From Anaeropeptidivorans aminofermentans (GTDB lineage Bacteria > Bacillota > Clostridia > Lachnospirales > UBA5962): a stretch of 64,000 bases of DNA. Of the stretch, positions 11,563-11,820 are shown in pieces (positions within the stretch are counted from its first letter, which is position 1; every line of letters starts with the position of its first letter). The notes under the pieces were generated by a model that ran no database searches, was not told where the DNA came from, and was given only the letters and a program-made list of their open reading frames with translations. The DNA lies in contig NZ_OW711693.1 of NCBI RefSeq assembly GCF_940670685.1, positions 558,001-622,000 of the forward strand, in the 5' to 3' direction. The position numbers and the translations under genes were made by a program.

Positions 11563-11820
11563 ATGGATCCATCAGCTTTTGTATTAGGTTGTTCGGCGCT
11601 TGGCGCAGGAATATGTATGCTTGCAGGTTTAGGTTCAGGTTTGGGACAAGGCTTCGCAGCAGGCAAGGCGGCGGAGGCCGTTGGACGCCAGCCCGAGGCT
11701 AGAAGTGAAATCTTAAGCACCATGCTTATCGGTGCGGCGGTTGCTGAAACCTGCTCGGTTTACGGTCTTGTTATAGCGCTTATATTGCTTATGGCAAACC
11801 CTCTCATGGGCTATCTGTAA
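11563..11820 (+). CDS. atpE: F0F1 ATP synthase subunit c, Na+-type ligands
   Basis: An 85-residue hairpin of two transmembrane helices forming the rotor ring. The polar loop reads GRQPEA. The ion site shows Gln29 in helix 1 (GLGQGF), Glu62 and Thr63 in helix 2 (VAETCSVY) and Tyr67. These align with Gln32, Glu65, Ser66 and Tyr70 of the Na+-binding Ilyobacter/Propionigenium c subunit, so Na+ coupling is inferred. Cys64 replaces the usual Thr after the Ser/Thr ligand. AAGGAGG lies 6 nt before the ATG. Confidence 0.93.

Follow-up and report, generated by a model that had tools for sequence, protein, structure and literature searches.

A probable Na+ rotor with cysteine at the water-anchoring position in an F1FO ATP synthase operon of Anaeropeptidivorans aminofermentans

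Na+-dependent ATP synthases are known in anaerobes, so that a Na+-coupled enzyme, as first proposed for this DNA in an earlier note, would in itself be an ordinary finding. The four best matches of the subunit c studied here among solved structures are 4bem (c1 and c2, the latter at 2.5e-32), 3zk1 and 1yce, which we take to be the Na+ rings of Acetobacterium woodii, Fusobacterium nucleatum and Ilyobacter tartaricus, respectively. The available portion of PMC3692424 describes the F. nucleatum site as one in which residue 32, Glu65, Ser66, the Val63 carbonyl and one water hold the ion, Tyr70 bonds Glu65, and the water bonds the Thr67 O-gamma and the Ala64 carbonyl. At that water-binding position (Ilyobacter 67), all predicted Na+ ATPases carry Ser, Thr, Gln or Arg, and all predicted H+ ATPases carry Leu, Ile or Val, according to the part of PMC2359735 at hand. 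Predictions of this kind can fail, as the accessible text of PMC5376962 illustrates: for the ring of an N-type ATPase, a class defined there by beta and epsilon genes leading the operon, Na+ was predicted from sequence and H+ was measured. A further relevant system, outlined in the accessible text of PMC12604602, is the ntp operon of Enterococcus hirae, which encodes a V-type Na+-ATPase followed by ntpJ (KtrB) at its 3' end.

The window, by which we mean the whole 64,000-nucleotide stretch of DNA analysed, corresponds to positions 558001-622000 of C1, the only contig of the 3.757-Mb host genome (96.75% complete). It holds a complete F1FO operon at 10711-17509 on the plus strand in the order a-c-b-delta-alpha-gamma-beta-epsilon, closed by AtpZ-like and AtpI-like genes at 17604-18286, such that the entire operon spans 10711-18286. 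All eight core subunits exceeded the TIGR cut-offs in an NCBIfam profile search (bit scores below, followed by the cut-off):

10711..11412, plus strand, atpB, subunit a, 233 aa (TIGR01131, 128.8 against 102.6)
11563..11820, plus strand, atpE, subunit c, 85 aa (TIGR01260, 62 against 43.95)
11852..12427, plus strand, atpF, subunit b (TIGR01144, 74.4 against 65.5)
12400..12876, plus strand, atpH, subunit delta (TIGR01145, 67.5 against 57.5)
12876..14384, plus strand, atpA, subunit alpha, also used in the tree (TIGR00962, 781.8 against 484.45)
14612..15469, plus strand, atpG, subunit gamma (TIGR01146, 279.1 against 194.45)
15672..17066, plus strand, atpD, subunit beta (TIGR01039, 821.4 against 462.85)
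17075..17509, plus strand, atpC, subunit epsilon (TIGR01216, 83.4 against 67.25)
17604..17849, plus strand, AtpZ-like (ATPase_gene1) gene in the operon tail (PF09527, 59.7 against 26.6; no NCBIfam match)
17846..18286, plus strand, AtpI-like (ATP-synt_I) gene in the operon tail (PF03899, 35.6 against 25.1)

The atpE frame begins with ATG behind a good ribosome-binding site (AGGAGG), and AtpB has an AFRLFGN motif whose Arg we take, by its role, to be the stator Arg. AtpZ- and AtpI-like genes usually open atp operons; here they form its tail. The operon includes no two-hairpin c1-type gene, and beta and epsilon do not lead it: both F-type operons of the host run a-c-b-delta-alpha-gamma-beta-epsilon. 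Two intergenic gaps in the window operon are wide, alpha-gamma (14385-14611, 227 bases) and gamma-beta (15470-15671, 202 bases).

The earlier note had named Gln29, Glu62, Thr63 and Tyr67 of subunit c as matching known Na+ ligands. All four are present, Val60 completes the set, and two further residues on which the note was silent, Ser25 and Cys64, depart from the model rings:

11635..11637, plus strand, Ser25 codon (Ilyobacter 28, where Pro is usual)
11647..11649, plus strand, Gln29 codon (Ilyobacter Gln32)
11740..11742, plus strand, Val60 codon (backbone ligand, Ilyobacter Val63)
11746..11751, plus strand, Glu62-Thr63 codons (Ilyobacter Glu65-Ser66)
11752..11754, plus strand, Cys64 codon (aligned with Ilyobacter Thr67, the water anchor)
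11761..11763, plus strand, Tyr67 codon (Ilyobacter Tyr70)

The A. woodii c2 subunit (4bem) shares the numbering and has the same Q29, V60, E62, T63 and Y67, but carries Thr64 and Pro25 where the window has Cys64 and Ser25. Likewise, the equivalents of Q32, V63, E65 and Y70 of the I. tartaricus c11 ring (1yce) are retained together with a hydroxyl at 66, whereas its Ser66, Thr67 and Pro28 are replaced by Thr63, Cys64 and Ser25. The F. nucleatum ring (3zk1), as covered by the available part of PMC3692424, matches at E65, V63, S/T66 and Y70 but has Glu32 in place of Gln29, a Glu shared by the second F-ATPase of the host. The matching of the four named residues exceeds chance, with the reservation that the chloroplast H+ ring (3v3c) also has Gln, Glu and Tyr at positions 29, 62 and 67, but Ala, Leu and Phe where the window has Thr63, Cys64 and Val60; the Na+ prediction therefore rests mainly on Thr63, with Val60 in addition. 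In Ilyobacter numbering, the window ring thus combines Gln at 32, a carboxylate at 65, Thr at 66, Val63 and Tyr70 with Cys at 67, where the portion of PMC2359735 at hand gives Ser, Thr, Gln or Arg for Na+ rings. Cys64 falls outside both the Na+ and the H+ sets of that study.

We consider it probable, with some reserve, that the rotor of this complete F1FO ATP synthase carries Na+. The proposal of a Na+-coupled synthase stands insofar as every direct ligand is present, but Cys64 breaks the published rule; with one defining residue unmatched, the enzyme would be a variant functioning as Na+ synthases do, outside the strictly defined set. By homology to the model rings, each Na+ would sit between adjacent c subunits, coordinated by Gln29, Glu62, the Val60 backbone and Thr63 in a geometry presumed to be alike. 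Tyr67 would lock Glu62, as it does in the A. woodii and Ilyobacter rings. The Cys64 side chain would anchor the water ligand in place of Thr/Ser, and Na+ affinity or Na+/H+ selectivity may consequently be below that of the model rings. One of the two protein bonds of the water, as set out in the accessible text on F. nucleatum, involves a backbone carbonyl and should be unaffected by Cys64. A Na+ gradient supplied by a biotin-dependent pump of the oxaloacetate decarboxylase type, not by Rnf, would drive ring rotation and with it ATP synthesis; running backwards, the enzyme would presumably spend ATP to export Na+.

The earlier suggestion that a decarboxylase might feed such an enzyme gained support from the host genome, in which a Na+-decarboxylase beta subunit, an oxaloacetate decarboxylase alpha subunit, a biotin carrier and an MmdA-like protein were found:

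C1:376114-377286, Na+-decarboxylase beta subunit (TIGR01109, 436.6 bits against a cut-off of 190.6)
C1:2022106-2025657 (7107-10658 of locus L109), four-gene decarboxylase run encoding MmdA-like, OadG-like, biotin carrier and oxaloacetate decarboxylase alpha proteins

The alpha subunit scored 767.8 bits with PRK12331 (cut-off 718) and 672.6 with TIGR01108 oadA, below its cut-off of 756.5. The MmdA-like carboxyltransferase, at 320.7 bits, fell far below the NCBIfam cut-off of 998.8 but above that of Pfam Carboxyl_trans. The OadG-like protein (115 aa) occupies the expected place and has one N-terminal hydrophobic segment by eye, with no model match. Within the run, the MmdA-like and OadA-type carboxyltransferases flank a single biotin carrier and OadG-like gene, and the beta gene lies elsewhere, about 1.65 Mb away. 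This distance, the low NCBIfam score of the MmdA-like protein and the lack of a model match for the OadG-like protein weigh against the proposed scheme. We infer that these separate genes form one pump; since the parts of a Na+-decarboxylase are encoded, a Na+ cycle from the decarboxylase to the window ATP synthase is possible on the strength of gene content. The host also has one exchanger of PF00999 and, at two loci, Na_H_antiporter (PF03553) genes. Neither a membrane pyrophosphatase nor Proton_antipo_M (Mrp, Nuo, Ech-type) gave a match in the host genome.

A PF00137 profile search located rotary ATPase genes at four places in the host genome, of which one is the window operon and the others are as follows:

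C1:746495-755083 (2496-11084 of locus L090), minus strand, second F1FO run: AtpI, a, c, b, delta, alpha, gamma, beta, epsilon, TrkH, TrkA
C1 ~1059154-1062284 (9655-12785 of locus L092), decayed run related to the second, retaining parts of c, b, delta, alpha, gamma and TrkH
C1 ~2231212-2240082, A/V-type cluster: A, B and D above NCBIfam cut-offs; K, E, F and C above Pfam cut-offs

In the second run, TrkH overlaps epsilon by 4 bases and TrkA follows directly. Its b, c, delta, alpha, gamma and beta subunits exceeded the TIGR cut-offs; a (93.9/102.6), epsilon (65.3/67.25) and TrkH (320.6/331.15) scored below the NCBIfam but above the Pfam cut-offs, and TrkA and AtpI were above those of Pfam. Its subunit c (GIGEGY...ETTGIY) is of the Glu32 type, a Fusobacterium-like two-carboxylate Na+ site, and with Thr at 67 it conforms to the published Na+ rule. 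Among the loci checked, TrkH recurs beside F-ATPase genes only in the decayed run of this genome, whose left flank has 51% GC and, by eye, glycogen genes, against 38.5% GC in the window. No TrkH/TrkA was found by tblastn near atp genes in 20 further loci (12 with Glu29; several stop less than about 2 kb past beta or epsilon) or in 80 named loci. An F-ATPase joined to TrkH/TrkA as a widespread module is thus absent from the loci checked, a sample too thin to establish rarity. Likewise, the titles and abstract openings searched reported neither an F-type atp operon containing a Trk/Ktr gene nor two F-type, or Na+-dependent, synthases in one genome, which leaves absence from print unproven in both cases.

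In both the E. hirae ntp operon and the second run, a Trk/Ktr K+ transporter gene comes after the genes of a rotary ATPase, but the former is V-type with KtrB and the latter F-type with TrkH and TrkA, separate from the window operon. The title of a paper cited in the accessible portion of PMC12604602 reports that the E. hirae transporter works independently of the ATPase, and this speaks against a tight ATPase-transporter link. In the A/V-type cluster, the score of I lay below the NCBIfam cut-offs, and nothing matched the 104-aa protein encoded at the G/H place. Its K subunit aligns best to the V-type K of 5gar, presumably from Thermus, and does not conserve the Na+ ligands, having Thr at the position of E. 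hirae NtpK Gln110 and Gly following the carboxylate; these residues make H+ coupling the more likely for the A/V-type enzyme, at modest certainty. Taken jointly, the three enzymes might comprise two Na+ F-ATPases with differing sites, namely a Gln/Cys64 synthase and a Glu exporter powering K+ uptake, alongside an H+ A/V-type, a composite picture that we advance as tentative and doubtful as a whole. Under it, the Gln/Cys64 ring would be a natural variant from a lineage that has released the water-anchoring Thr, in a decarboxylase-fed synthase, and the Glu ring with TrkH/TrkA in one gene run would be the F-type counterpart of the E. hirae V-type ntp operon.

The same gene content bears on whether the window enzyme, while still a Na+ machine and so compatible with the Na+ synthase reading, serves chiefly as an ATP-driven Na+ exporter for symporters and makes little ATP. 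Fermenters with rotary ATPases often operate them in reverse, and neither a redox pump nor a pyrophosphatase was found among the families sought, both of which would fit such a role; the encoded Na+-translocating decarboxylase set argues against it, as does the second F-type enzyme, whose TrkH/TrkA tail looks better suited to Na+ export. On balance, chief use as an exporter is a serious possibility that falls short of being probable.

The rarity of Cys64 was gauged by surveying position 64 in related rings. A tblastn search of loci L004-L083, L111-L159 and L160-L165 recovered 232 hairpins, which were reduced to 153 by removing duplicates and those lacking Gln/Glu29 or Glu62, giving a non-random sample, as loci had been chosen for likeness to the window or second subunit c. 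Within it, position 64 is Thr in 100 and Ser in 46 (146/153 together); Cys occurs three times, and Ala, Met, Gly and Asn once apiece. This predominance of Thr and Ser counts against Na+ coupling of the window ring, as does the Ala of its tree neighbour L046. Position 25 is Pro in 121/153, with the Ser25 of the window recurring in only 3/153 other hairpins. The Cys rows (L006, L036 and L082) are the most similar to the window among 80 of the 174 confirmed loci (81-84% identity), and L006 and L036 are identical across their shared length. A tree of 103 alpha subunits, built by a quick method without bootstrap and with long branches, unites these three and L046 with the window in one clade (100% SH-aLRT), across which position 64 reads C,C,C,C,A, the Ala belonging to L046. 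The group that next encloses this clade (13 rows, 99% SH-aLRT) includes five members of the family to which the window belongs, and we accordingly see no sign that the operon was acquired from a distant source. Among six other genomes of the family, position 64 is Ser in four, Gly in one (L103/L162) and Asn in one (L105/L164, outside the tree). With the carboxylate and Thr63 kept while position 64 varies, the water-anchoring residue seems to be under relaxed constraint in this lineage. No Thr67 variants were reported in the titles and abstract openings of the literature searched, where absence from print is unproven.

This variation can also be read the other way, as a sign that the ring is promiscuous or H+-coupled because Cys at the Thr67 position weakens the water ligand and H+ outcompetes Na+ under physiological conditions. 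Such a reading draws on the absence of Cys from the published Na+ set, as far as the text of PMC2359735 at hand extends, on the C,C,C,C,A pattern of the alpha clade with Gly and Asn in 2/6 other family members, and on the precedent of the N-type ring in the accessible part of PMC5376962. Yet Cys is equally absent from the Leu/Ile/Val set listed for H+ enzymes in that same portion of PMC2359735, all direct ligands are retained, and so is Thr63, a residue missing from the chloroplast H+ ring. We regard a promiscuous or H+-coupled ring as the less likely reading but a serious rival, and retain the Na+-carrying rotor as the preferred one.

As for the source of the gradient, the earlier note had offered Rnf as an alternative to the decarboxylase, a suggestion that did not survive the genome search. 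The one-contig host genome yielded two RnfC profile matches, both below cut-off (the better within a 595-aa frame that is HydB/NuoF-like by eye), and no match to RnfD/NqrB (PF03116), for which the same search was positive in 4/14 controls. Although RnfC exceeded the cut-off in 2/7 family genomes and a third has a match ending at a contig end, generation of the Na+ gradient by Rnf is highly improbable here. Overall, none of the Rnf, Nqr, membrane pyrophosphatase or Mrp/Nuo/Ech-type candidates for a Na+ gradient maker rose above cut-off in the host genome.

Several features of the surveyed DNA merit separate mention. Single frames of 370-458 aa with 4-5 F-type c hairpins occur at L007 8612-9940, L014 8519-9895, L077 6559-7887 and L010 8365-9477; in each, one hairpin keeps Glu62, whereas the others have Gln62 and carry Gln, Cys or Val at 29. 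They adjoin a normal one-hairpin c gene, and a rotor incorporating them, if made, would be strongly asymmetric. Locus L006 has a split atp operon (9144-12810 and 13027 onward) in which gamma, beta and epsilon do not adjoin alpha, after which come opposite-strand genes that are ribosomal-protein/nusG-like, as named by eye. Elsewhere in the window (24157-26799) lies a P-ATPase of the copper type whose N-terminus has, by eye, three near-identical metal-binding repeats.

Collectively, Thr, Ser, Cys, Ala, Gly, Asn and Met all occur at the water-ligand position in rings whose Na+ sites are otherwise intact, and these natural position-64 variants make the role of the residue in Na+/H+ selectivity directly testable. 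At the level of the organism, one genome encodes both known site designs of Na+ F-type rings, one of them adjoining K+ transporter genes.
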